Below, piece after piece: positions 1-15,471 of a stretch of DNA of 64,000 bases. The notes under the pieces are model-generated. The model was not told where the DNA came from, ran no database searches, and was given only the letters and a program-made list of their open reading frames with translations. Positions within the stretch are counted from its first letter, which is position 1. Each line of letters starts with the position of its first letter. Origin of the DNA: Chthoniobacterales bacterium (GTDB lineage: Bacteria > Verrucomicrobiota > Verrucomicrobiia > Chthoniobacterales > DYNR01). The stretch lies in NCBI GenBank assembly GCA_026418675.1, contig JAOAAX010000003.1, positions 90,676 to 154,675 on the forward strand. Direction: 5' to 3'. The position numbers and the translations under genes are program-made.

Positions 1-486
1 AAAAATGTCGTAAGAGACGAATTAAGGCGTAGGGGATTAGAAAAAGAATGGATAAGATTACAGGGGATCGTTTATGGCAAGAGAATCATTGAAGCTGAAG
101 TTTTTGAAGGTTTTGAGGAATTTTGTGAAGAGGCTTGCGGTAGAGGACATCGTCTTGTTATTATTAGCCACAAAACGCGATTTCCTTTTATAGGTGATAA
201 AGTTGATTTACATCAATCAGCTCGAAATTGGATATGTGATAAGCTATTTTATAAAAAGGGCTTAATTCAATTATCTGATGTTTATTTTGAGCTTACAAAA
301 GCAGAAAAAATAAATAGAATTTGTAATGTCGGGTGTGAATTTTTTATTGATGATTTACCTGAAATTTTAGAGGATCAAGCTTTTCCGGTGAATATAAAAA
401 AAATCCTTTTCGACTCTGAAAGAAGATTTAAAAAAACATATGCTGTTGTTAACACCTGGAGTGAGGTTCTGCAATATATAAAATAA
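1..486 (+). CDS. HAD-like hydrolase family protein, 3' part (5' end outside window)
   Basis: Frame 1 is open from base 1 to TAA at 484-486: ...RLVIISHKTRFPF...KAEKINRICNVGCEFFIDDLPEILED...; the VIISHKT and FFIDDLPEIL stretches resemble HAD motifs. Confidence 0.6.
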   Translation, partial: KNVVRDELRRRGLEKEWIRLQGIVYGKRIIEAEVFEGFEEFCEEACGRGHRLVIISHKTRFPFIGDKVDLHQSARNWICDKLFYKKGLIQLSDVYFELTKAEKINRICNVGCEFFIDDLPEILEDQAFPVNIKKILFDSERRFKKTYAVVNTWSEVLQYIK

Positions 487-619
487 CAACTAAATAAAAA
501 TTTAAATAATATAGATTTATAATATGCTATGAAAGTTCTATTTTAAATTGTGATGCGTTATAAAGTTAATTTATAAAAATTATTTTTTGAACAAATAACA
601 CTGCGGTATTTAATATAAT

Positions 620-1597
620 TTGAAAAACGAAACCACAGATGATGACGTCAATGAAATTGCCAAATTTTTATTGGGATCAGATAACTATGAAATTTATCCG
701 CTTCATTCCGGAGGAAATAACAGCATATTTATTGCAAAAAGAGAAAAAATAAAGATAGTAATTAAAAAATACTTTCGTGATTTGAGAGATAAACGCGATC
801 GTTATGATACGGAAAAAAAATTTTATCTACTCGAACTAGAAAATACACCAAAAAGTCTTTTTTGGAATGATCAAAAAAAAATTGCTGCATTTGAATACAT
901 TGAAGGAAATATACCTAATGAGGTTACCTCCGATGATATTCAAAACATTGTAAAATGGATATGTTATATTCAAAAAAAACGGGATTCTTTTGTGGCAAAA
1001 GAAATATCATTGGCTTCAGATGCATGTTTGTCAATTCGTGATCACATATTTTCGCTTAAAAGAAGAATTGACAAACTACTGAATGGGAATTTAAAACACA
1101 AAGGTTTCATGGATTTTTTTCAAAATGAGCTTTACCCGAAAGCTCAAAAAATTATTAATTTTGTAGAAAAAAGCTTTTCTAGCAAACTTGATTACAAAAT
1201 AGTCGAAAATTATCAAATTTTGTCTCCTTCAGACTTTGGTTATCACAATATTCTTAAAGGCAAAGATAACAAGTTATGGTTTTTTGATTTTGAATATTCT
1301 GGGTGGGATGATCCCGCTAAGTTAATTTGTGATTTTTTTTGTCAGCCGCAGGTTTCTGTCCCTTTAGGGTTTTCAGAGAATTTTATTAATGCCCTCGTTG
1401 AATTTACTGGGGATAAGGAAATTGCCAACCGTTTTGAAATTTTGTATCCTTTACATCAAGTTAAGTGGGCCTGTATTTTGTTAAACGAATTTTCGCATTC
1501 TGGAGCTGCAAGAAGGAAATTTGCTAAAAAAATTATAAATTTGGATAATCAATTGACTAAAGCAAAAAAATTGCTTTGTCAAATAAAAACATTTTAA
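620..1597 (+). CDS. APH/choline-kinase-like phosphotransferase family protein (TTG start likely)
   Basis: 325 aa; 'LSPSDFGYHNILKGKDNKLWFFDFEYSGWDDPAKLICDF' matches the APH catalytic and Mg-binding loop pattern (H/SDxxxxN...DFE). Confidence 0.75.
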   Translation: MKNETTDDDVNEIAKFLLGSDNYEIYPLHSGGNNSIFIAKREKIKIVIKKYFRDLRDKRDRYDTEKKFYLLELENTPKSLFWNDQKKIAAFEYIEGNIPNEVTSDDIQNIVKWICYIQKKRDSFVAKEISLASDACLSIRDHIFSLKRRIDKLLNGNLKHKGFMDFFQNELYPKAQKIINFVEKSFSSKLDYKIVENYQILSPSDFGYHNILKGKDNKLWFFDFEYSGWDDPAKLICDFFCQPQVSVPLGFSENFINALVEFTGDKEIANRFEILYPLHQVKWACILLNEFSHSGAARRKFAKKIINLDNQLTKAKKLLCQIKTF

Positions 1598-1621
1598 TTT
1601 CTATTTTTATTTTAATTTAAA

Positions 1622-2293
1622 TTGATTATGGGTTGTTTAAAAAATTATATTACAAAATTACATCAATCAACAAAACGGGATTATCTCAAAAGAATGTGCG
1701 ACTCCAAAGTTGAGTGCATGAAAATTGCAAGGCAATATGGATATGACTATTGGGATGGAGATAGAAAATATGGCTATGGCGGATATTCTTATATTCCTGG
1801 TAGGTGGAAAAGTGTTGCTGAAAATCTTATTAAAGATTACCAACTAGCAGATGGAATGAATATATTGGAAATTGGATGTGGTAAAGGTTTCTTATTGTAT
1901 GAAATGCAATTATTAATGCCTTCTTTAAATCTTTATGGATTGGATATATCTGAATATGCCATTAAAAATGCACATCCTAAATTAAAAGCTACTTTTTTCG
2001 TAGGTAACGCTAATGATCTTCATATTTTTAATGATAAAATGTTTAATTTAATAATTTCGATTAATACTTTACATAATTTACCATTACATGAAATTGAGAG
2101 ATCACTTAATGAAATTGATAGGGTAGGGGATAAAGCATACATTGTGGTGGAAAGTTTTCGAAACGAACAGGAATTGTTCAATCTTCAATGTTGGGCTTTA
2201 ACTGCAGAAAGTTTTTTTCGTCCGGAAACGTGGATTTATTTGTTTAATAAAAAAAGCATAAATATAGACTATGAATTTATATTTTTTGAATAA
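1622..2293 (+). CDS. class I SAM-dependent methyltransferase
   Basis: 223 aa; 'MNILEIGCGKGFLLYEM...YGLDISEYAI' is motif I and post-I of class I MTases. Confidence 0.8.
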   Translation: MIMGCLKNYITKLHQSTKRDYLKRMCDSKVECMKIARQYGYDYWDGDRKYGYGGYSYIPGRWKSVAENLIKDYQLADGMNILEIGCGKGFLLYEMQLLMPSLNLYGLDISEYAIKNAHPKLKATFFVGNANDLHIFNDKMFNLIISINTLHNLPLHEIERSLNEIDRVGDKAYIVVESFRNEQELFNLQCWALTAESFFRPETWIYLFNKKSINIDYEFIFFE

Positions 2294-2315
2294 AACTTAA
2301 ATTAATAATTTTTAT

Positions 2316-2900
2316 ATGAAAATTGCATACTTAACAAATCAAAATGCAGATTTTAAATATTTAATACCTAATTTTATATCCTCACATAAAATTGAATGTG
2401 AAATTATTACTGAGAAAGTATCATTGGAAACACTTGTAAATTTGAAAATTGACTATATAATAAGTGATAGATTTAAATTTTTATTGACACCTGAAATTTG
2501 TAGATATTATGACGGGAGAGCTCTTAATTTACATGGTTCAATTTGCCCTAATTGTAGAGGCTATTATCCAATACTTTGGACAGTAATTGAAAAAAAGCCT
2601 ATGGGTGGCACCATTTTTTATATTGATGAAGGGATTGACACTGGTGATATATTACAACAATTTGAAATAGAATATACTGATAATGACACATTGAGAAGTT
2701 GCTGGATTAGAGTTCAGATGGGTATGTATGAGGGATTGTTTAAGTATTGGAATGATTTTCTTAATTTAAAAGCTCCTAGAAAAAGGCAGGTTGGTTTTGG
2801 AACATTGCATTACAAAAAGGAATTTGAGAATGTCAAAGATTTACTAACAAATGGATGGGATACAAAGATAAAAGATATTTATAAATTACTAAACAAATAA
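2316..2900 (+). CDS. formyltransferase family protein (Met-tRNA/sugar formyltransferase fold)
   Basis: 194 aa; 'ALNLHGSICPNCRGYYPILWTVIEKKPMGGTIFYIDEGIDTGDIL' resembles the formyltransferase N/H/D active-site region. Confidence 0.8.
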   Translation: MKIAYLTNQNADFKYLIPNFISSHKIECEIITEKVSLETLVNLKIDYIISDRFKFLLTPEICRYYDGRALNLHGSICPNCRGYYPILWTVIEKKPMGGTIFYIDEGIDTGDILQQFEIEYTDNDTLRSCWIRVQMGMYEGLFKYWNDFLNLKAPRKRQVGFGTLHYKKEFENVKDLLTNGWDTKIKDIYKLLNK

Positions 2901-3487
2901 AAAAGATAACAATCCTTTAAAAAAACTATATTTATAGATAGTTTAATAAATAATATTCGATTTCTTTTGTTTAAATAAAAAATTTAAAGATTTAAAGTGG
3001 TGTGACTTAATTGAATAAATAAATTACTCTGAAAAATCTACAAAAAAATTCACGTTTTTTAATCCATAAAAAATATAACGATGTTATATAACAAAAGATA
3101 ATATGTTTAAGAAATGATTTATTAATTCCCCACACAAGCAAATAGGAATTAGAGAATGATAATTTTAGTTTTCCTTGATACAATGAAAAAATGTTATTAT
3201 AAAGAATTATGTTTCAAAAAAAAGATTTTTTTTTGCGAAATTATTTCATACATCAATATGGCATTTAGCTGATTCTTTATCTATGGACGTAATTTTTTTG
3301 AAACTATTGATTGTCCATATCATCTAAAAAAGTAATTTTTTTGTAACTACTAATAGAATGTTATGATAAACCAAAAAATATGAATTTATCTTGCAAAATT
3401 GGTTTAAAAAAATAGTCAAATTTTTATGTTTTCTATAATAGAATAAAAAGAATAAAAAAATAAAAAAATAAATTTTATAAATTGTGA

Positions 3488-3511
3488 TTTATAAATTTAT
3501 AAATTTATAAA
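3488..3511. repeat. three perfect tandem copies of the palindromic octamer TTTATAAA
   Basis: TTTATAAA at 3488-3495, 3496-3503 and 3504-3511, ending 11 bp before the ATG at 3523. Confidence 0.8.
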
Positions 3512-3522
3512 TTAATTCTTAT

Positions 3523-4536
3523 ATGCATTTAATTGATTATATCAGACATGTTAAAAAAAAAGATGAAATTCTCATTATTAGCCCTACAGCAATAGGTGAA
3601 GCTTTTGTTGTTGTTTTACTCTTGGAAGAAGTTTATAATAAATATAACAGAAATATTCATTTAATTTTACCGCCACATCAAACAGACATTTTAAAACTTA
3701 TAAATGTTCCACGACAATATCTGTTTTGTGGAACATGCCATTATAAACTTATTGCATCTTTTTACAAGGATTATAAAATCTTGAATATCGATAATGGTGA
3801 TAATATAGTAGTTGTATATCCTGATTACTTTTTTAGTTATCCCTTTGATTTATTTAAGTCATTTATAGATAGTAATGGAATTTTTGGTTTAGATTATGTA
3901 AAATCTATTAAAAGAGTCTTGGGTTTAAATTTAAACTGTTTATTGACTAAACCAAAAAATAATTTAAATGATATTAGTTTAAAATATTTAGAAAAATTAA
4001 ATTTAAAAAAAGGACAATATGTACTTTTTCAAGTAGGAAGTAATTCAAGAAAAGCTGTCCCTTATGAGATTTTTTTTAAAATTGCATTATATTTTTTTAA
4101 TAAAGGATATGATATAATAATAAATAGAGCAAATTCTTTATTTCAACCTAAAGAGAGATTTCCAATTGCGAAATATGAGACATCTTTCTCAATATATCAT
4201 GCTAATTTGTTAGCGCTAAATGCAAGTTATGTTATATCTACTGGCTCAGGTATACTATGTTCTTTTATATATTTAAATAATCTTTCAACAATTGATACTA
4301 AATTAGTTCATATTGGAACCAATTATAGAACATTAAGTCATATACCTCCTATTATATTTGAAAAAGTTTCTCCTTTTGTAAATCATAAAAATTGCATGCC
4401 TGAAATTATTACTAATAAAAAAAATCTCTATGAATGGTATTTGCCACTTGAGTTAAATAAAGATGAAAGGGAAAAATTTATTAATGATGTTTTAACTTTT
4501 GATAAAAAATCTTTTTTTTACATGGGACCTGTTTAA
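3523..4536 (+). CDS. putative GT-B fold glycosyltransferase (GT9/heptosyltransferase-like)
   Basis: 337 aa; C-terminal 'YVLFQVGSNSRKAVPYEIFFKIALYFFNKGYDIII...LNASYVISTGSGILC' resembles the nucleotide-binding half of GT9-type enzymes; weak similarity. Confidence 0.4.
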   Translation: MHLIDYIRHVKKKDEILIISPTAIGEAFVVVLLLEEVYNKYNRNIHLILPPHQTDILKLINVPRQYLFCGTCHYKLIASFYKDYKILNIDNGDNIVVVYPDYFFSYPFDLFKSFIDSNGIFGLDYVKSIKRVLGLNLNCLLTKPKNNLNDISLKYLEKLNLKKGQYVLFQVGSNSRKAVPYEIFFKIALYFFNKGYDIIINRANSLFQPKERFPIAKYETSFSIYHANLLALNASYVISTGSGILCSFIYLNNLSTIDTKLVHIGTNYRTLSHIPPIIFEKVSPFVNHKNCMPEIITNKKNLYEWYLPLELNKDEREKFINDVLTFDKKSFFYMGPV

Positions 4537-4561
4537 TACTAAAATAGTATCAATATTGAAT

Positions 4562-5866
4562 ATGATTATGGATATAAACGATAAAATTTTAAGGACTTTT
4601 CCTAATTCTAAAAATGAGTTAATAAGGATAATTTTTGGAAAAAATGAAATGTTATATTTAAATGATAAAAATTATTATATTGACTTAACAGGTGGTGGCA
4701 CAAGTTTCAATACTGTTGGTTATTCAAATCGTAGAATTATAAATAAGATGGTTAATAAAGCCCTACTAATTTCACATGCAGACTTTAAAACTACATTAGA
4801 TGAAGATAGAGAAAAATTAGCTGAATTACTTTTGAAGGATAACAAAATTTCCAATGAATTTGTTTATTTTGCTGGAAACTCTGGTGGCGAAGGTATTGAG
4901 GCAGCTATGAAATTAAGTTATCAAACCCATTTAGAGCTTGGATACTCTAAAAGAAATATTTTTATTTCAAGAATGGAGTCATATCATGGATCATCAACTG
5001 ATGCTATTGCTATTAGTGATAGAAAAAATTTATTAATATATAAAGATTTATTTCCTTGTAATCGCTATAAGATTTCAGATCATTATTTTATTAAGAATAG
5101 GCGAATTGGAGAAACTAAGGAAGAATATACAAAAAGATGTCTTGATGAATTTGAAAAAAAAATATTAGAACTTGGTCCTGAAAAGGTTTGTGCTTTCATA
5201 GGGGAAACAATTATGGGTGGACTACAAGGTTTTATAGAACCCTGTGATGGTTACTGGAAAGGTATTAGAGATATATGTGACAAATATGGCATACACTTAA
5301 TTCTAGATGAAGTTATCTGTGGTTGTGGTGTTACAGGAAATTATTATTGTATTGAGTATGATGGTATTACACCAGACTTTTTAGTTATATCAAAGGGTCT
5401 AACAAGTGGTTATTTTCCTTTAAATGCAGTATTGCTTACAAGGAAGACTTATGAAGCAATAAGTAATGGAAGTGGAAGAACCAATCATTCTACAACTTTT
5501 CAAGGACATTCAATTGGTTGTGCCGTAGCTTTGGAAGTTACAAAAATAGTTAAGAGGCATATTTTTTTAAAAAGGGTTCAAAAATTAGGGGATCTTGTTA
5601 GACAGAAAATAGAAAGTTATCTAAAAGGACACCCTAATTTTATAGCAGTTCATGGAAGGGGTTTAAGGATTTCAATAGAGTATTCTTTTAATAATATGAT
5701 TAGTTTTGCTGATTATTTTAGGAATTTAATGAAACAAAAATATAAAATCCTTTTAGACGTGAAATGGCATAGAATATTATTGAGTCCGCCTTTAACGATT
5801 TCTGAAGATAAACTTTTATCTAGTGTTGAAAAAATTTGTTTAGAGTTTTTAAATTACAAAGAATGA
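4562..5866 (+). CDS. class-III PLP-dependent aminotransferase (GSA-aminomutase-like); ORF track start 4499, ATG at 4562 more likely
   Basis: 'YFAGNSGGEGIEAAMKLS', 'LILDEVICGCGVTGNYYCIEYDGITPDFLVISKGLTSGYFPLNAVLL' (PLP-Lys in SKGL). Confidence 0.85.
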   Translation: MIMDINDKILRTFPNSKNELIRIIFGKNEMLYLNDKNYYIDLTGGGTSFNTVGYSNRRIINKMVNKALLISHADFKTTLDEDREKLAELLLKDNKISNEFVYFAGNSGGEGIEAAMKLSYQTHLELGYSKRNIFISRMESYHGSSTDAIAISDRKNLLIYKDLFPCNRYKISDHYFIKNRRIGETKEEYTKRCLDEFEKKILELGPEKVCAFIGETIMGGLQGFIEPCDGYWKGIRDICDKYGIHLILDEVICGCGVTGNYYCIEYDGITPDFLVISKGLTSGYFPLNAVLLTRKTYEAISNGSGRTNHSTTFQGHSIGCAVALEVTKIVKRHIFLKRVQKLGDLVRQKIESYLKGHPNFIAVHGRGLRISIEYSFNNMISFADYFRNLMKQKYKILLDVKWHRILLSPPLTISEDKLLSSVEKICLEFLNYKE

Positions 5867-6309
5867 AAGTTAGCAACATATTGCACATAGAGATGTTAAA
5901 AAATCAGGCAATAATTAATCTTACAAAAAGGTCAAGAATTTGTTATCATGAATCTTTAGAAGATTCAATTCATGAAATGCTGATATGCTTGAATAAAGAT
6001 ACTTATATAAAACCTCATCAACATATAAATAAAATTGAATCGGGAATTTGTATTGATGGAAATGCTATTTTATATATTTTCGATGATTATGGAAAAGTAA
6101 AAGAAAAATATTATCTAAGTTCTAATTTTGAAGAAAAATCAATATTCTATTATCGACTAGAAGATTCTATTTTTCATACAATTATTGTAGAAACAGATAA
6201 TTTTATTTTTTTTGAAATCACACAAGGTCCTTATAAAAAAGAGGATACAAAATTTGCTTTATGGGCTCCCGATACACTTGAAGAATTAAAAAAACGGCTA
6301 TTATCTTAA
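5863..6309 (+). CDS. WbuC-family cupin-fold metalloprotein; ATGA overlap with upstream gene
   Basis: 'SRICYHESLEDSIHEMLICLNKDTYIKPHQHINKIESGICIDGNAILYIFDDYGKV...' follows the WbuC pattern. Confidence 0.75.
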   Translation: MKVSNILHIEMLKNQAIINLTKRSRICYHESLEDSIHEMLICLNKDTYIKPHQHINKIESGICIDGNAILYIFDDYGKVKEKYYLSSNFEEKSIFYYRLEDSIFHTIIVETDNFIFFEITQGPYKKEDTKFALWAPDTLEELKKRLLS

Positions 6310-6310
6310 T

Positions 6311-9300
6311 ATGTTAGGTGATAATTCTTTAACAATTACCTTACTGACAACAAAGTTTTCTGATTACTTAATTGAATCAATAAAATCAACTATTATTGCA
6401 GCAAAAAATGCTGGTCTGACAAAATTATATTTAATATTAAATGCAGGTGAGGCAAGTAATTATCTATTTAAGAAGATAAATAATGTATTAAAAATAAGTG
6501 ATATCTTTTCTGTTGAAATACCTGATAAAAATAAGATATTAAGAATTTATGAAGCATGGAACTATTGTCGTCAAATATGTAGAACGAAATATTTACATAT
6601 CATGCATGATGATGATATTCTGAGTAAATATTTTTACACCGAGTTAATTTCTTTGTCGGAGAAATATAAAAATTTTGAAATATATGCAACTTCTAGAGCT
6701 GCAATTGGTTCAAAGAATTATGTTGTAATTCACCCTTATGGAAAATGGAATAAAGCCTGGGAAATATTTGCAATGTTTAATCCATTTGCCGCAAGTGAAG
6801 TAATTTTTGATTGTAACGCAATTCCCGATTTTCAAGAGGATTTGAATTATTGTGGAGATTGGAGAGCTTGGCTTACTGCTGCATTGAATGATAAAATTGC
6901 TACTACAAATGAAGTTTTGCATTTCTATAGATTTCATAAATCTAGTACTCGTGAGCAAAATCAAAGGCAATGCCGAGATATAAAAGAAATTTATGATACT
7001 TTAGTTTGGGTTAACAATACTATTCAGAAAGTTAAGGGATATTATTTTGATTTTTCAAGATATACTTCTGCGTTAGAAGAACCTTTTCGTGAAGCCGTAG
7101 CAAAAGCTGAAAAAGAAAAAGATTCATTAATTGCAAATAAGTTATTTAATTTAATTCGATTACCCGGATTCCCTTTTCGGTTACAATTGCTTTGTTATGA
7201 GAAATTAACAAAATTAGCTTTAGAAATTGATTATAAACCTGATGAATTATTTTTAAATACAACTAATACTAAGTATAATCCCCCTGATATAGTAATAAAA
7301 ATTTCTGATGAAACATCTGTGTCGGATTTAGATTGCTTGAGTTTGTTTAAAGAACTTCCGAGTAGTTTAAAAAAGAGAATTTTGTTTTATTCGGATGAAC
7401 CTGGCTACGGAGGGGTAGGACATTATGTAGACAGTTTGCTGAGGGGTGTAATTAAGCGAGGACATGAGGTGTGGAGTGCTCAACCAGAGTGGAAGAGTCC
7501 GATGTTGGATGCTCAGAGAGAATTAGGTGTTAAGCATATATGGACTGGTTTTAATCCTGTTGAAGAGTTCGGGCGCTCTCTTACTGATTTAGAAGATGCA
7601 AGACGGGTGATTAGCGAAGTTCAACCCGATGTAATTTTTTTTGTTGACTGCTGCCCGATTTCCAATTTGGCCGCCAAGGAAGTTGCATTTCAAAGTGGAG
7701 TTCCTTTTGTATCCTCCTGCCATATAGATGCTCCTTATTTGGCTGAAAGGTTTCAAAAATATTTGGCTGATGTTCATCGGCATTTTTTATATGCAACCGA
7801 GGCTATTACTGTTTCAGAAAGTGCATTAATGACTTTGAGGAATCACTTTGGTCTGTCCCAATATAAAGGAAAGGTAATCTATAATGGCCGCCCTGAAAAG
7901 TATTTTGCTGATGTTGATCAGTCGTCCCGAGAAACTGTTTTAAAAGAGTTAAATTTACCGTCTGAGGCGGTTGTTTGTTTTACGGCTGCAAGGATAATAC
8001 ATGAAAAAGGATTTGATTTACAGATTGAAGCGATTTCTGAATTAGCAAGGGGAGGCAATTTGGGTAATTTGCATTTTGTTTGGGCCGGAGAGGGTAATTT
8101 TCTTAAGGAACTGAAGGATATTGTTGTTAGTAAAGGGCTCCAGCAGCGTGTGAAGCTTCTAGGGTATAGGTGGGATTTAGTGAAGTGGTTGGAGGCATGT
8201 GATATTTTTGTTTTGCCTTCACGTTTGGAAGCAATGCCCTTGTGTGTAATGGAAGCGATGGCTAAAGGAAAACCAGTAGTCGCAAGTGCGGTTGCAGGGA
8301 TTCCAGAGGAATTGGGAGAGGCAGGTATTCTCCTTCCTGATCCTAATAAAGACTCAAAAGCAACTGTGAAGGAGTTGGTGCGGGTTTTACCAGTTCTTGC
8401 TAATGATATACAGATGCGGCGGCAGCTAGGGCAAGCGGCCAGGTGTAGAGCATTAAAACTTTTTCGGGAGGAGGAAATGTGGCGGCAGACAATTCCTCTG
8501 ATCGAAGAGGCTGCCAGTGAAGGACCAAATTGGGTAGCTTGTAGGCGCTTTTGTGCATTAGCAAGAGTGGACCACAAGGTGAAGGAGATTCTTGTTGAGT
8601 ATCGGAAAAAACTTGAAGTTGTACAAGAGATTCCGAAGGAATTGGAAATCCCTGAATTTGGAGAGGATGAGATTCAGGAGATTCGTAGTTTGATTGAGAG
8701 TTGGTCAAAAGATCCATCTAACCAAGAAATTGTAAATCAATTACGTGTCCTTAGGCAGAAAGTAGCCTCGTTCTTGGTAAATCAAAAGGATGAAATTGCT
8801 CCATTGTTGTTGCAAAAGAGCTTAGGGCAGATATACCGTCTAATATTGAAATCAGGCTTTGCTGAGGTTCCTGAAACGGAAGAGGAAAAAGGGGTGCGAA
8901 AATATCTAGCTGGTGGTTTCGATGATCAAGGGAATTTCCATTTTCTTCGGCTTGCAGCTGCGATGTTGTTCGATTTGGCGCACCGTTATCCGGTGATGGG
9001 AGCATTAGAACTAATTCCTAATTGGTTCATAAAAGATTATCTGGAGTGGTTATTTACAGGTCCAAGTGTGCTTACTATGGAAAATGAGGCTGATAGGTAT
9101 GTCCGACACCTAGAATCGAGTTTAGAAGAGGTGTTGTGGAGATTAGATAAGCCTGAAAGTCTTTCAATTGACCCTTTAGAGATTGGAAAATGTGTAACTT
9201 CAAAGTTAAACTTATTTTACGCCTACCCAAGTAGGCATTCAAATCGAGAGTTAATGAAGCTTCGTGCTTTATTAATTGAAAAAACTCTTCAACTTGCTGG

Positions 9301-12300
9301 AGCGAAACTTGACGGGCCTCAAATTAGTTTTGAACCTCAAATAAAACCTCGTAAAGGGAATCGCTGGAGGATTGGTGTTTTAAATGCCCACTTTGGGCAC
9401 CAAACTGAAACTTATGTTACTCTTCCTATTCTTCATTTACCTGAAGAACGGTTCGAAGTATTACTTTTTGCAGGGATGGCAAATCCAGATTCTGTAGAGC
9501 AATATTGTAAAAGACTGTCAGATATTTTTGTCGTTTTGCCGGAAGGGATAAGCAACCAAGTAGAGATGATTCGACGAGCGGAATTAGATGCATTAATTAT
9601 AGGAACGAATGTTACAGCAGTTACAAATTTTGTAAGTTTAATCGCGGCGCATCGCATGGCCCCCCTTCAAATTTTGTCACATTGTTCACCAACTACGAGT
9701 GGATTTCGCAACGTGGATGGTTTTCTTACTGGAGTACTGGCATGGGATCCAGACTGGAGTAAGAATGAATTTCATGAACGATTAATTGTTTTGGATGGAC
9801 CTCCGGTTTGTTTAGATTATCAAGTAGAAGTTGGTAAGGGGAGTAATAGCTTATGCCGCAGCGAGTTGGGGCTATCAGATAATAAAATCTTGTTTTTTAA
9901 TGCAGCTAGTTGCTTTAAGATTCCAATGGATTTAATTCGTATATGGGCAAAACTTTTGCGTGAAGTCCCCGAAAGCCAATTAGCATTGATGCCATACAAT
10001 CCAAATTGGTCACATAATTTTCCTGTTTGGAATTTTCAAAATACATTTAATCAAGTTCTTGAAGAGGAAGGTATAGAATCATCACGTGTAAAGTTTCTCA
10101 AGTCTGTTTATTCGAGGCAAGAATTGAAACCATATGTAGCATTAGCTGATATTTATTTGGATACATTTCCTTTTGTTGGTAGCATTTCCACTGTAGATCC
10201 TTTAGAGCTTGGTGTCCCTGTCGTAGCGTGTGACGGTATGACAACTCGCTCTAGATGTTCAGGTGCACAGATGCGAGCCTTGGGTTTGGGAGAATGGGTT
10301 GCTCGAGATGAAGAAGAATATTTTGAAATTGCTTTTGAATTAGCAAGGAATAAAGAACTCCGATTAAATCTATCTCAAAAAATTAAAAGTGCAATGGCAG
10401 CTCGGCCCAAATTTCTTGACCCTGAATATTATGGGCAACAACTTGGTGAACTACTTGAAATACTCTTAACGAAAGGGTGGGATGCTTTGCCGAAACCGAG
10501 AGCTTATGAAGAGAGAAGAAAACCTAGAATTAGGAAAGGGTGGTGGAATTCTTTCAAAAGTGGTGAAGAGATAGAAAACAATGTCAAGAATTTTTGTGAG
10601 ACGGTTGACAAATTTAACGAAATAACAAAAAAAACAATGGCAGTTGAAATCGCTTTTGAGAAGGAAGAGACAAAACCGATTGCAGAAGCAACTGACAAAA
10701 AAGAATCTGAAGTTAAATATACAGAGTTACAGGGAGAATTTGTTGAAGAAAAATCCGTTGAGGAACTTTTGAAATTGGCACATGAAGCCTTGAAAGAATC
10801 ACGTCTTATTCAAGCAGAAGATCTTGCAAGAATTGTTGTCCAGCGGGAGCCAGAAAATGCTGAAGCTTGGGCAATTCTTGGACAACTTGCTCGCGATAGT
10901 GGTGATTTAGAGTTTGCAGCTGATCTTTTTCAACAAGCTCATTTGCTTAAAACTGAAGAATATTCTTTTGCATTGGATTATGCTAAAACATTGCATATGC
11001 AACAAAAGCATAAAGAAGCAGTGGATGCTTTCTCTCGCACTTTAAAGATTCGAAGCACATCTGAAGCTCATCTTGGATTAGCTATTTCTTTAGAGGCACT
11101 ACAAAATTATTCAGAAGCTGAGAAGGAATTTGAATTGGCTATTAAGCTTGCTGAAACAGAAAACGAGAAACACAATGCGAGACTTTTATTTTCTCAATTC
11201 TTGTCGCAGCAGGGGAGAATGGATGAAGCAATTTCATACGCGCACGAAGCCTTAGATTATGAACCAAACTCTCTTGATTCCTATCTTTGCCTTGCAAGAA
11301 TCTATCTAAAAGATCAAAAATTAACTCAAGCTTTGCAAATACTTTCTCGGGCAGAAAAGAAATTTCCAAATTCTTTCGAACCTTTATACGAGCAAGCGAT
11401 AATTTATCTATCACTTTCTCGAGCAGAAGAAGCAGTTGATATTTTACGCAGAGCTACAACAATCGAAACTCAAAATGGCATGCTATGGTTTCAATTGGGT
11501 TATGCGCTACAAGTTTTGGGAAGAAAAACAGAAGCATTAAAAGCTTATAACAAAGCTGAATTGTCAGGCTTAAAAACATTTGAGCTTTTTTTAAATTCTG
11601 GAGCGATTTTGAAAGAGAAGGAAAATTACTTCGAAGCAGCCAGATGCTTTACGAAGGCTATTGAATTGAATCCAAATTCGAGTATCGCGCTTAACAATCT
11701 TGGCACTGTGTGTATTCACATGGGGATGACAACAGAGGCAATAGAATGTTTTAACAAGGCTTTGGAACTCGATCCCAATCTTGAACATGCTCATTCAAAT
11801 CTTGGTCAGTTGTTGCACTTGAGTGGGCGAGCAAAAGAAGCTTTACCTCATTATTATAAAGCTTTGGAAATTAATCCAAATTTGCCCGAAGCAATCCATT
11901 CGTATTTATTATGTACGTTATACCAAGAGGACTGGACTCCTGAAAAAATTTTTGAGGAACATCGAAAATATACTCAAAATCTCGGAGTTAATTCTAAAAA
12001 GCCAACGAATCGAAAACCTATAAAACGTAAGACCCTTGCATCAAATGAACGGGTTCGCATTGCTTATGTTTCGCCTGATTTTTGCGGTCATCCAGTTTCT
12101 TACTTTGTAGAACCATTGTTGGCAAATCATAATAAAAAAACATTCGAAGTTTTTGCACTATCGGATGTTCGAAAAAGTGATGAAATCACGGAGAGGCTCC
12201 GAAAACTTCCTGAGCATTGGCATGCTACTTCTCAGCTTAATGCAAGTGACTTTTTACAACTTTTAGATTCTTTAGAGATTGATATTTTAGTTGAACTTGC

Positions 12301-13135
12301 TGGTCATACAAGTCATAATCGTCTTCGGGATTTGTATTATCAACCAGTTCCAATACAAATTTCTTATCTTGGATATCCAGCAACAACGGCTTGTCCTGGC
12401 ATTCAATTCCGAATAACGGATATGTGGGCAGACCCGCCAGGTGAAACCGAGCACCTTTATACAGAGCGTCTTATAAGACTTTCTCGATGTGCATGGTGTT
12501 ATACACCTCATCCTGCTTCTCCCAGCATAAATCGAACTCCACCACATGTTCGGAATGGATATATTACATTTGGCTGTTTCAATAACCTAGCTAAAATCAA
12601 TCCACCATTGCTAGAGTGTTGGTTAAAAATTCTGCAGGCAGTTCCAGAATCGCATCTTTTTTTGAAGTCAAAGCACTTAGCTGACGAGGGGGTGAAAAAG
12701 TTCTATTTGGACTGGTTTACGTCCAAAGGCATATCTGATAAACGAATAAGGTTACTAAAATTTGAGCAAAAGACTGCTGATCATTTAAATCGTTATAACG
12801 AAGTTGATATAGCTTTAGATACATTTCCATATCAAGGAACAACTACAACTATTGAATCGTTGTGGATGGGTGTTCCTGTGGTGTCTCAATTTGGCTCAGA
12901 ACATCGAAGCAGAGTTTCAGTAAGTCTTTTGAATGCAATTGGCCATACAGAGCTTCTAGCATCCAATCCCGACGAATACATTTCAAAGGTTATTGAGCTT
13001 GCTAATGACCCTTCTCAAATTCAAAATTACCGTTCAACACTTCGTTCATGTCTTATTAATTCTCAGTTGGTTGATCGTCAAAGTTTCATTAATGCATTAG
13101 AAAAGGAATACTTAAATTTACTGGAACAAAATTAA
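6311..13135 (+). CDS. multi-modular glycosyltransferase: GT2-like, GT4, GT41/OGT-like, TPR, GT41/OGT (2274 aa)
   Basis: N-term 'YLHIMHDDDILSKYF' (GT2 DXD-like); GT4 'FTAARIIHEKGFDLQIEAISEL...VLPSRLEAMPLCVMEAMAKGKPVVAS'; first OGT-like 'ILFFNAASCFKIPMDLIRIWAKLLREVPESQLALMPY...YLDTFPFVGSISTVDPLELGVPVV'; TPR repeats; second OGT 'IAYVSPDFCGHPVSYFVEPLL...GHTSHNRL...PIQISYLGYPATT...CFNNLAKINPPLLECWLKILQAVPESHLFLK...LDTFPYQGTTTTIESLWMGVPVV'. Confidence 0.9.
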   Translation: MLGDNSLTITLLTTKFSDYLIESIKSTIIAAKNAGLTKLYLILNAGEASNYLFKKINNVLKISDIFSVEIPDKNKILRIYEAWNYCRQICRTKYLHIMHDDDILSKYFYTELISLSEKYKNFEIYATSRAAIGSKNYVVIHPYGKWNKAWEIFAMFNPFAASEVIFDCNAIPDFQEDLNYCGDWRAWLTAALNDKIATTNEVLHFYRFHKSSTREQNQRQCRDIKEIYDTLVWVNNTIQKVKGYYFDFSRYTSALEEPFREAVAKAEKEKDSLIANKLFNLIRLPGFPFRLQLLCYEKLTKLALEIDYKPDELFLNTTNTKYNPPDIVIKISDETSVSDLDCLSLFKELPSSLKKRILFYSDEPGYGGVGHYVDSLLRGVIKRGHEVWSAQPEWKSPMLDAQRELGVKHIWTGFNPVEEFGRSLTDLEDARRVISEVQPDVIFFVDCCPISNLAAKEVAFQSGVPFVSSCHIDAPYLAERFQKYLADVHRHFLYATEAITVSESALMTLRNHFGLSQYKGKVIYNGRPEKYFADVDQSSRETVLKELNLPSEAVVCFTAARIIHEKGFDLQIEAISELARGGNLGNLHFVWAGEGNFLKELKDIVVSKGLQQRVKLLGYRWDLVKWLEACDIFVLPSRLEAMPLCVMEAMAKGKPVVASAVAGIPEELGEAGILLPDPNKDSKATVKELVRVLPVLANDIQMRRQLGQAARCRALKLFREEEMWRQTIPLIEEAASEGPNWVACRRFCALARVDHKVKEILVEYRKKLEVVQEIPKELEIPEFGEDEIQEIRSLIESWSKDPSNQEIVNQLRVLRQKVASFLVNQKDEIAPLLLQKSLGQIYRLILKSGFAEVPETEEEKGVRKYLAGGFDDQGNFHFLRLAAAMLFDLAHRYPVMGALELIPNWFIKDYLEWLFTGPSVLTMENEADRYVRHLESSLEEVLWRLDKPESLSIDPLEIGKCVTSKLNLFYAYPSRHSNRELMKLRALLIEKTLQLAGAKLDGPQISFEPQIKPRKGNRWRIGVLNAHFGHQTETYVTLPILHLPEERFEVLLFAGMANPDSVEQYCKRLSDIFVVLPEGISNQVEMIRRAELDALIIGTNVTAVTNFVSLIAAHRMAPLQILSHCSPTTSGFRNVDGFLTGVLAWDPDWSKNEFHERLIVLDGPPVCLDYQVEVGKGSNSLCRSELGLSDNKILFFNAASCFKIPMDLIRIWAKLLREVPESQLALMPYNPNWSHNFPVWNFQNTFNQVLEEEGIESSRVKFLKSVYSRQELKPYVALADIYLDTFPFVGSISTVDPLELGVPVVACDGMTTRSRCSGAQMRALGLGEWVARDEEEYFEIAFELARNKELRLNLSQKIKSAMAARPKFLDPEYYGQQLGELLEILLTKGWDALPKPRAYEERRKPRIRKGWWNSFKSGEEIENNVKNFCETVDKFNEITKKTMAVEIAFEKEETKPIAEATDKKESEVKYTELQGEFVEEKSVEELLKLAHEALKESRLIQAEDLARIVVQREPENAEAWAILGQLARDSGDLEFAADLFQQAHLLKTEEYSFALDYAKTLHMQQKHKEAVDAFSRTLKIRSTSEAHLGLAISLEALQNYSEAEKEFELAIKLAETENEKHNARLLFSQFLSQQGRMDEAISYAHEALDYEPNSLDSYLCLARIYLKDQKLTQALQILSRAEKKFPNSFEPLYEQAIIYLSLSRAEEAVDILRRATTIETQNGMLWFQLGYALQVLGRKTEALKAYNKAELSGLKTFELFLNSGAILKEKENYFEAARCFTKAIELNPNSSIALNNLGTVCIHMGMTTEAIECFNKALELDPNLEHAHSNLGQLLHLSGRAKEALPHYYKALEINPNLPEAIHSYLLCTLYQEDWTPEKIFEEHRKYTQNLGVNSKKPTNRKPIKRKTLASNERVRIAYVSPDFCGHPVSYFVEPLLANHNKKTFEVFALSDVRKSDEITERLRKLPEHWHATSQLNASDFLQLLDSLEIDILVELAGHTSHNRLRDLYYQPVPIQISYLGYPATTACPGIQFRITDMWADPPGETEHLYTERLIRLSRCAWCYTPHPASPSINRTPPHVRNGYITFGCFNNLAKINPPLLECWLKILQAVPESHLFLKSKHLADEGVKKFYLDWFTSKGISDKRIRLLKFEQKTADHLNRYNEVDIALDTFPYQGTTTTIESLWMGVPVVSQFGSEHRSRVSVSLLNAIGHTELLASNPDEYISKVIELANDPSQIQNYRSTLRSCLINSQLVDRQSFINALEKEYLNLLEQN

Positions 13136-13188: not shown

Positions 13189-15471
13189 TTGAACAGAGAA
13201 GAATCTGAACTGGTTTTTGCAGAGGAGTTATTAGAAAAGGGCAAATTTCAAGAAGCTGAGCAGAAACTAAGCACTTTTCTAAAGAGCAACCCGAATTGTG
13301 CTCACGGTTGGTATTTGTTAGGAAGAATCGCTACAGAAAACGGGCAGTTCGAAGCTGCAACAGATTTTTTAAGCCTTGCTACTCAACTCGAACCATCTAA
13401 TGCAAATTACTACTATGCTCTTGCTCAAAACTTTTTTTGCTATGATCAATATCAACATGCTCTTTTGGCTTTAGATCGTGTTTTTTCATATGAACCATTC
13501 CACGTTGCAGGTAAACTTCTTCAAGCAAAAATATATCATAATCTGAAACAACCTCTGCGCGCTGAAAAAAACTATCAGAATTTACTTAAAATCAACATTA
13601 CTTCCTACGAACAAGTTCGTGCTCTTGAGGAGTATGCTAATTTTTTATGCGCTTTAAATCAGCACCAGAAAGCTATTGATATTCTCAAAAAATATCTAAA
13701 AAATTTAAACTGTAATCAAGGATATTTCAAACTTGTCTTAATCCTTTCACATCTACTAATTACAAATCAACAACTTGAAAAAGCTTATCATTATTGTAAG
13801 CTTGCTATTGAACTTGATCCAAGCAGTGCGATAGCACTTTATAACTATGCTTATGTAATTCACCATCTTGGCCGTTACCAAGAAGCTCTTCCAATATATG
13901 AAAGGGCAGAAAAAGCAGGATATCATCATTCCGAGCTTTATTTAAATTTAGGGGTAATTCATAAGCTCAACAATAATTATCAGACGGCTATTGAATATTT
14001 TTACCGTGCTCTTCAGAAAAACCCGAATTCATTATCGGCAATCAACAACCTTGGTGCAGTTTGCAACGAAATCGGATTTGCTTCTGAAGCAATTGAATGC
14101 TATGAGCAGGCTATCAAAATAAATCCGAATCGAGCTGGCCCATACAATAATCTTGGTTCTATTCTTAAAGACACTGGTCGTGCTACGGAGGCAATACCTT
14201 ATTATAAAAAAGCCCTTGAGCTTGAACCGAACAACGTAGAGTTTATCAATAACTATCTTTTCTCTACTCTCTATTTGAACATTAATTCAGAAAAGATTTT
14301 TGCTGAGCACAAATCTCTTGCACCACGCATATCTAAACAAGTTAAGAAGCTTTCTCCTATTCGAGTTCCTTCAAAGAAGAAGCTACCAATACGGATCGCC
14401 TACCTTTCACCAGATTTCCGTGCTCACCCAGTTGCGGCATTTCTTGAAGCACTGCTTAAGTATCATAACAGATCACAATTTCAGGTCTATGCTTATTGCG
14501 CTGCTCCATGTTCTGATAAAGTTACCAATCATCTTCGTCAATTTCCAGACATCTGGCGGGATGTTTCTCAGTTGAAGGCGATTGAAACGGCTCGGCTAAT
14601 TCATCGGGATCAAATTCATATTTTAATTGAACTTGCTGGCCACACTGCGCATTCTCAGCTACCTGTCCTTGCTCATAGGCCTGCACCAATTCAAATATCT
14701 TACTTAGGCTATCCAGCAACAACGGGACTTCCTGAAACCGACTTCAAGATTACTGACAATCTTACTGATCCCTCTCCAACTGCTGATCAATTCTATACTG
14801 AGCGCCTACTACGACTGCCTTGTCCACAATGGTGTTTTACTCCTCCCTTCGATTCTCCTCTTCCCTTAATTCATCCACCTGCCCTTTCCAAACATTTTAT
14901 AACTTTTGCTTCGTTTAACAACCTCGCAAAAATCAATCTACCTCTTGTCGAAATATGGTCCAAAATTCTTCTTGCTATCCCCAATTCTAAACTTTTTCTG
15001 AAATATCGCACAATTATAGACAAAAATGTCCAGAATTGGTTGCTCAATCAATTCTCGAATTTTAATATTTCTCCGGACCGTTTGATTCTTTCAGGGTTTA
15101 CACCTAGTAAAAAAGATCACCTTGAAACTTACAATCGAGTTGATATAGCTCTTGATACTTTTCCTTACAACGGAACAACAACAACATTGGAAGCTCTTTG
15201 GATGGGAGTTCCTGTTATTACGCTTGCAGGTTCTGACCATCGTTCGCGCGTAGGACTAAGTATGCTTTCTTCGCTTCAACTTAATGACCTTATTGCCTAT
15301 TCTCCAGAGGAATACATTCGAAAAGCTATTAATCTTGCCAGTGATCTTTCTCTCTTAAGTTCTTTCAAATCTTCACTTCGCAACACGCTACTAAAATCTA
15401 CCCTTCTAAACCCGAAGGAATTTATTGTTCATTTCGAAGAACTCCTTCTTTCGTTACTCCCAGAGTCATAA
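13189..15471 (+). CDS. TPR repeat plus GT41 (SPINDLY/OGT-like) glycosyltransferase; TTG start
   Basis: 760 aa; TPRs then 'IAYLSPDFRAHPVAAFLEALL...ILIELAGHTAHSQL...PIQISYLGYPATTGLPETDF...LDTFPYNGTTTTLEALWMGVPVI'; aligns with the C-terminus of the preceding ORF. Confidence 0.9.
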   Translation: MNREESELVFAEELLEKGKFQEAEQKLSTFLKSNPNCAHGWYLLGRIATENGQFEAATDFLSLATQLEPSNANYYYALAQNFFCYDQYQHALLALDRVFSYEPFHVAGKLLQAKIYHNLKQPLRAEKNYQNLLKINITSYEQVRALEEYANFLCALNQHQKAIDILKKYLKNLNCNQGYFKLVLILSHLLITNQQLEKAYHYCKLAIELDPSSAIALYNYAYVIHHLGRYQEALPIYERAEKAGYHHSELYLNLGVIHKLNNNYQTAIEYFYRALQKNPNSLSAINNLGAVCNEIGFASEAIECYEQAIKINPNRAGPYNNLGSILKDTGRATEAIPYYKKALELEPNNVEFINNYLFSTLYLNINSEKIFAEHKSLAPRISKQVKKLSPIRVPSKKKLPIRIAYLSPDFRAHPVAAFLEALLKYHNRSQFQVYAYCAAPCSDKVTNHLRQFPDIWRDVSQLKAIETARLIHRDQIHILIELAGHTAHSQLPVLAHRPAPIQISYLGYPATTGLPETDFKITDNLTDPSPTADQFYTERLLRLPCPQWCFTPPFDSPLPLIHPPALSKHFITFASFNNLAKINLPLVEIWSKILLAIPNSKLFLKYRTIIDKNVQNWLLNQFSNFNISPDRLILSGFTPSKKDHLETYNRVDIALDTFPYNGTTTTLEALWMGVPVITLAGSDHRSRVGLSMLSSLQLNDLIAYSPEEYIRKAINLASDLSLLSSFKSSLRNTLLKSTLLNPKEFIVHFEELLLSLLPES

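Follow-up and report, generated by a model that had tools for sequence, protein, structure and literature searches.

We describe a 2274-residue protein from a Chthoniobacterales bacterium (GenBank assembly GCA_026418675.1), encoded by one open reading frame (ORF) at positions 6311-13135 of a 64,000-nucleotide stretch of contig JAOAAX010000003.1 (contig positions 90,676 to 154,675; hereafter the window, to whose + strand all window coordinates refer). From its sequence and from the genes beside its relatives, this giant chain is probably a soluble, modular, cytoplasmic O-glycosyltransferase whose main acceptor would most likely be flagellin, with a conserved core and exchangeable front modules. 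From N to C terminus, it consists of a GT2 module, a GT4 module, a helical domain with a divergent GT41 glycosyltransferase (dGT41), a tetratricopeptide repeat (TPR) array, and a canonical GT41 (cGT41) at the C terminus.

One uninterrupted chain with four glycosyltransferase modules

The ORF runs from ATG to TAA without internal stops and lies at 96986-103807 of the 154,675 bases of the contig, well away from the contig ends. The host genome is a metagenome-assembled genome (MAG) of 2.34 Mb in 131 contigs, 94% complete. A first-pass annotation of the window had read the gene as uninterrupted, with four glycosyltransferase modules and a TPR array. The frame is indeed open over all 2274 codons, and Pfam, profile, and fold searches uphold the parse in every module. 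In particular, the N terminus and the first GT41-like segment were rightly called glycosyltransferases: fold searches lead from the former to GT-A enzymes and from the latter to SPINDLY, XcOGT, and OGT.

The N-terminal module (6311..7345; residues 1-345) has no Pfam or NCBIfam match, with Pfam scanned at E values up to 1. It is related to a 304-aa GT2-like protein (23% identity over ~224 residues; E = 4.9e-16), with which it has the HDDD (residues 99-102) and DWxxW (DWRAW, 183-187) motifs in common, and a profile search links it to the GT2 of chondroitin synthase (1.6e-12). Residues D101, D102, and D183 are invariant in an alignment of window and related-locus sequences, which also supplied the alignments for structure prediction. 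The predicted model is of low confidence (predicted local distance difference test [pLDDT], 54); the best listed PDB matches in a fold search with it are GT-A enzymes, among them TarP, CgT of dGT1, and chondroitin polymerase. By homology, profile, fold, and motifs, this module is a GT2 glycosyltransferase with a predicted GT-A fold. The adjacent GT4 module (7379..8530; residues 357-740) carries a Gly-rich loop, GGVGHY, and an EX7E motif, EAMPLCVME. Pfam places PF13439 at 366-526 and PF13692 at 556-692, and the scores for the PF13439 and PF00534/PF13692 lobes (69, 100, and 101 bits) all exceed the cut-offs.

The helical domain plus dGT41 (8531..10495; residues 741-1395) is the most widely conserved module. 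Scanned alone, residues 1000-1420 match PF13844 at 3.6e-25 with 88.7 bits against a cut-off of 25. Residues ~741-1005, overlooked in the first pass, are a helical domain that forms part of the divergent GT41 unit. Prediction of the structure of 741-1395 from a 26-sequence alignment (pLDDT, 89.5; predicted template modeling score, 0.90) gave a GT-B fold preceded by an all-helical domain. Among solved structures, this model is matched best by SPINDLY, XcOGT, and human OGT, with template modeling scores by target of up to 0.76. Lys1203, Arg1269, and Asp1296 are kept in 26/26 dGT41 sequences, and in HMMER alignments they fall at what we take to be K842, K898, and D925 of OGT. The HMW1C-like N-glycosyltransferases (NGT) were considered as nearest kin of dGT41 and are ruled out by score and fold: the HMW1C/NGT equivalog NF049992, with a curated cut-off of 1000 bits, gives 27 bits for dGT41 and 55 for cGT41, and none of the 50 top fold matches listed for dGT41 is an NGT. 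The weak NGT matches reflect similarity of the dGT41 C-lobe to HMW1C-like enzymes, which are also GT41 proteins of the GT-B type.

The TPR array (10751..11950; residues 1481-1880; Pfam TPRs at ~1485-1875) stands directly in front of cGT41 (11951..13132; residues 1881-2274), a SPINDLY/OGT-type enzyme with the motifs SPDFCGHPVS, CFNNLAKI, and TFPYQGTTTTIESLWMG. Its donor motifs CFNNLAKI, with the Lys, and TFPYQGTTTT are both present, and its Pfam match is strong, the whole giant protein reaching 236 bits for PF13844 against the cut-off of 25. The giant chain thus contains the layout of the FlmG-type flagellin glycosyltransferase, a TPR domain followed by a GT-B domain.

A conserved core behind changing front modules

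Relatives were sought in a phylum sample of 388 genomes and in a wider scan of 84,980 species genomes; a 14-row alignment yielded no conserved stretch for the wide scan, and a narrower alignment was used instead. The full helical-plus-dGT41 module occurs at high score in 10 of the 388 genomes. The wider scan returned 40 loci. Most are from Verrucomicrobiota; the outliers carry the labels cyanobacteria, Nitrosovibrio, Desulfonema, Myxococcales, and others. One locus, L106, comes from a MAG entered under the name Chthoniobacter flavus SulCav_FS08, and the records of other relatives name Spartobacteria and Opitutaceae.

The core, dGT41-TPR-cGT41, is found in about eight Verrucomicrobiota genomes (L106, L107, L108, L109, L113, and L116, with L115 split by a frameshift), and the modules in front of it vary: GT2-GT4, GT2-GT2, GT4-GT4, or GT2. 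The first-pass annotation had pointed to related genomes as a place to look for the same architecture, and it is present there, core and order recurring in L107, L086, L106, L109, and L116. L107 has the order of the window, GT2-GT4-dGT41-TPR-cGT41, plus one extra N-terminal domain, and its 5' end is open. L109 reads GT2-GT2-dGT41-TPR-cGT41, L116 reads GT2-dGT41-TPR-cGT41, and L113 reads GT4-like-GT4-dGT41-TPR-cGT41. Other relatives encode GT2-GT4-dGT41 (L086), GT2-GT2-dGT41 (L110 and L111), dGT41-GT4, or dGT41 alone, and some unfused dGT41 genes adjoin separate TPR-GT41 genes. In L115 (6102-12228), GT2-GT2-dGT41-TPR-cGT41 is carried by two overlapping ORFs; the apparent frameshift is either a sequencing error or a switch. 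Some cyanobacterial chains have dGT41 near the C terminus (L122 4227-10199, from Pleurocapsa, and L124, L125, and L143); in L122, a methyltransferase, an FkbM methyltransferase, and a GT4 precede it.

Across the window and the relative chains, dGT41 modules are 37-58% identical and cGT41 modules 46-50%. The GT4 modules of the window, L107, L113, and L086, all of them fused to dGT41, are 50-55% identical, and the GT2 modules share only ~20% identity (19-21% for that of the window). In a tree of dGT41, the sequences from the window, L106, L041, L107, and L109 group together with a support of 1.0, despite their differing N-terminal modules. Base composition also changes along the chain. The GC content at third codon positions (GC3) is 0.18 in the GT2 module versus 0.25-0.35 in the rest of the ORF, with a step from 0.18 to 0.35 where GT2 meets GT4 (residue ~350), and a milder drop is seen in the N-terminal modules of L107 and L109. 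Positions 1-7300 of the window form a low-GC island (21-30%), whereas from ~16 kb on, values are mostly 42-57%; the giant ORF itself spans the break. The low GC of the GT2 module is like that of the sugar genes upstream, a match that suggests module exchange. Taken together, the module identities, the dGT41 tree, the GC3 step, and the upstream match indicate that the core was kept while N-terminal modules were apparently exchanged.

Flagellar genes beside the relatives

Flagellin genes are present in 11 of the 40 loci, including Pfam-confirmed examples. Models that ignore relatedness and place 3 to 8 flagellin sites in a genome of 2.3 Mb put the probability of this by chance at 1e-10 to 3e-6. 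Within the phylum sample, flagellins are encoded in 10/10 genomes with dGT41 versus 47/388 overall (Fisher test, 2.7e-10, uncorrected for relatedness, nine of the ten being one family). The L109 chain lies 1.5 kb upstream of a flagellin, and the L116 chain starts 340 bases after an FlgL-type flagellin-family gene, fliW, and csrA, with flgH upstream. Elsewhere, seven flagellins are followed by dGT41 (L132), three flagellins by TPR-GT41 and dGT41 (L087), and fliD and a flagellin by dGT41 and GT4 (L135); L094 has fliD and PseB-, PseC-, and PseF-like sugar genes, PseF being assigned by eye. The host genome of the giant ORF encodes two Ser/Thr-rich flagellins of 274-280 aa, fliW, and a flagellar operon (flgK, flgH, and other assignments made by eye). 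It has no match to PF01973 (Maf-type), in a search whose positive controls were archaeal, so that its sensitivity for bacterial Maf is not established. Since relatives sit beside flagellar genes, the giant chain most likely decorates flagellin.

Proposed mechanism and alternatives

For the acceptor, catalytic activity, reaction order, and sugar identities of the giant chain, we infer the following. The TPR array would bind flagellin in the cytoplasm, and cGT41 would probably attach the first sugar to its Ser/Thr residues, as FlmG does in Caulobacter; it is by analogy to FlmG that we take TPR-cGT41 as the part that binds and primes the acceptor. Further sugars, products of the upstream low-GC cluster, would then be attached by the dGT41, GT4, and GT2 modules. 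The dGT41 module, which relatives carry with GT4 fused on one side or the other, is the best candidate for a neighboring step, with GT4 and GT2 as candidates for later extension in this presumed order. The core would be inherited by descent, and the N-terminal glycosyltransferase modules would be swapped along with local sugar genes. With only the front modules exchanged, glycan structure could change without re-inventing acceptor recognition. The first-pass annotation had proposed that a single chain primes a protein and extends its glycan; fused and separate modules beside flagellins give this comparative backing, and priming, extension, order, and hand-over keep the standing of proposals. 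A true single-chain assembly line, in which the TPR array holds flagellin while sugars are added one after another by cGT41, dGT41, GT4, and GT2, and in which lineages swap only N-terminal modules along with sugar genes, is a tentative idea that we find somewhat doubtful. If true, its module exchange would resemble that of modular synthases.

Several observations weigh against a flagellin glycosyltransferase of this kind. The context statistics take related genomes as independent, the host flagellins lie on contigs other than that of the giant ORF, and the sugar genes around the ORF could equally serve lipopolysaccharide (LPS) or capsule. The position of OGT His498 is occupied by Gln in 25/26 aligned dGT41 sequences, so the acceptor chemistry may differ from that of OGT. 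Three dGT41 paralogues (L094 10453-12792, L095 5949-8366, and L096 4150-6171) have lost the otherwise invariant donor-site Lys; they are possibly pseudo-enzymes acting as partners. The cyanobacteria that carry L122, L124, L125, and L143 are organisms without flagella, and flagellin is thus not the sole acceptor of the dGT41 family. Finally, the composition step within a MAG gives a small chance that the GT2/GT4 join is chimeric; the worry about an assembly chimera, raised in the first pass, is weakened by the same core and order in independent genomes and survives at that join.

The acceptor could instead be another exported protein (S-layer, pilin, or adhesin), or several, with the flagellar neighborhood confined to one branch of the family. 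The lack of a flagellin near the giant ORF in its own genome would fit, as would the methyltransferase-FkbM-GT4-dGT41 architecture of cyanobacterial members and the fact that HMW1C-type GT41 enzymes, weakly matched here, modify adhesins. We nevertheless consider this unlikely, given that the same-core relatives L109 and L116 lie beside flagellar genes and that all ten dGT41 genomes of the phylum sample have flagellins. It is still less probable that the chain assembles a polysaccharide (LPS, capsule, or exopolysaccharide), GT2 and GT4 extending a lipid-linked glycan and the GT41 parts being structural or regulatory. GT2 and GT4 families do mostly build glycans, and the upstream genes are O-antigen-like (WbuC cupin, DegT aminotransferases, dehydratase, and formyltransferase), but the donor-site Lys is kept in both GT41 units, GT41 enzymes of known function act on proteins, and flagellins accompany many relatives in the stretches examined. 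Least probable of all is that GT2 owes its place in the chain to faulty assembly or to a very recent recombination event, leaving GT4-dGT41-TPR-cGT41 or less as the working enzyme: the GC3 step in a MAG and the absence of a close relative of this GT2 from other chains allow for it, yet the frame is open through the join, GT2 has the same position in L086 and L107, and the milder GC drop recurs in L107 and L109.

Relation to known glycosyltransferases

The putative flagellin O-glycosyltransferase has its closest functional model in FlmG of Caulobacter crescentus, a cytoplasmic protein whose N-terminal TPR domain binds flagellins and whose C-terminal GT-B domain glycosylates them (PMC7591256). 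FlmG matches the TPR-cGT41 part in layout; it differs in having 596 aa, one transferase, and a pseudaminic acid donor, and it is without dGT41, GT4, and GT2 modules (PMC7591256). In the flagellin glycosylation islands of Enterobacteriaceae, GT41 enzymes occur with sugar-biosynthesis genes, and most are fused to methyltransferase domains (PMC4875605), so fusion of a tailoring module to GT41 is already known. As described in that study, the island of each strain has transferases of a single family (GT2, GT25, or GT41), and the passages found there mention no chain that unites GT2, GT4, and two GT41 units (PMC4875605). In the Fap1 pathway of Streptococcus parasanguinis, dGT1 has two transferases on one polypeptide for successive steps of one protein glycan (PMC5063993, PMC5207161). 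There the glycan is extended stepwise on the protein itself, as we propose for the giant chain; dGT1, however, has GT-D and GT-A domains and no GT41 or TPR, depends on a separate Gtf1-Gtf2 for priming, and acts on a serine-rich adhesin. SPINDLY, OGT, and XcOGT resemble dGT41 in fold and cGT41 in sequence and have the donor-site Lys, but they have a single catalytic unit behind their TPRs; the helical domain of dGT41 differs, and its His498 and His920 positions are altered.

The giant chain is longer and more modular than known flagellin GT41 enzymes and dGT1. A literature search, which left out most subscription papers, gave no match for multi-module GT41 chains or verrucomicrobial flagellin glycosylation and no existing name for dGT41, a widespread GT41 subfamily. 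In bacteria, protein glycans are for the most part assembled by groups of individual transferases. A chain whose gene reveals which modules it has, and in what order, would tie sequence directly to glycan structure, offer a natural way of asking whether transferases that share a polypeptide work in sequence, and might serve as a soluble scaffold for glyco-engineering. The present chain also hints that flagellin is glycosylated in Verrucomicrobiota.

Genes around the giant ORF

A single base separates a WbuC-family cupin gene (5836..6309) from the start of the giant ORF. The cupin gene is preceded by a class-III aminotransferase (4499..5866), likely for sugar or substituent biosynthesis, a formyltransferase (2316..2900) related to sugar N-formyltransferases, and kinase-like and methyltransferase-like proteins (620..2293) that belong to the same low-GC sugar cluster. 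Upstream of the window, this cluster goes on with an HldE-like kinase/nucleotidyltransferase, a dehydratase, two DegT aminotransferases, and genes for a split transketolase. The HldE-like gene has a counterpart of 54% identity adjacent to dGT41 and GT4 in L090.

Only 53 bases downstream of the giant ORF lies a separate TPR-GT41 gene (13189..15471; 760 aa; 46% identical), also missed in the first pass, whose product is a probable partner of the giant chain. TPR-GT41 genes like this one, often paired, adjoin unfused dGT41 genes in Opitutaceae. Further fusions in the same order include a 1469-aa TPR-GT41-TPR-GT41 protein (L045 8896-13305) and a 1012-aa TPR-GT41-GT4 protein (L048 147-3185).

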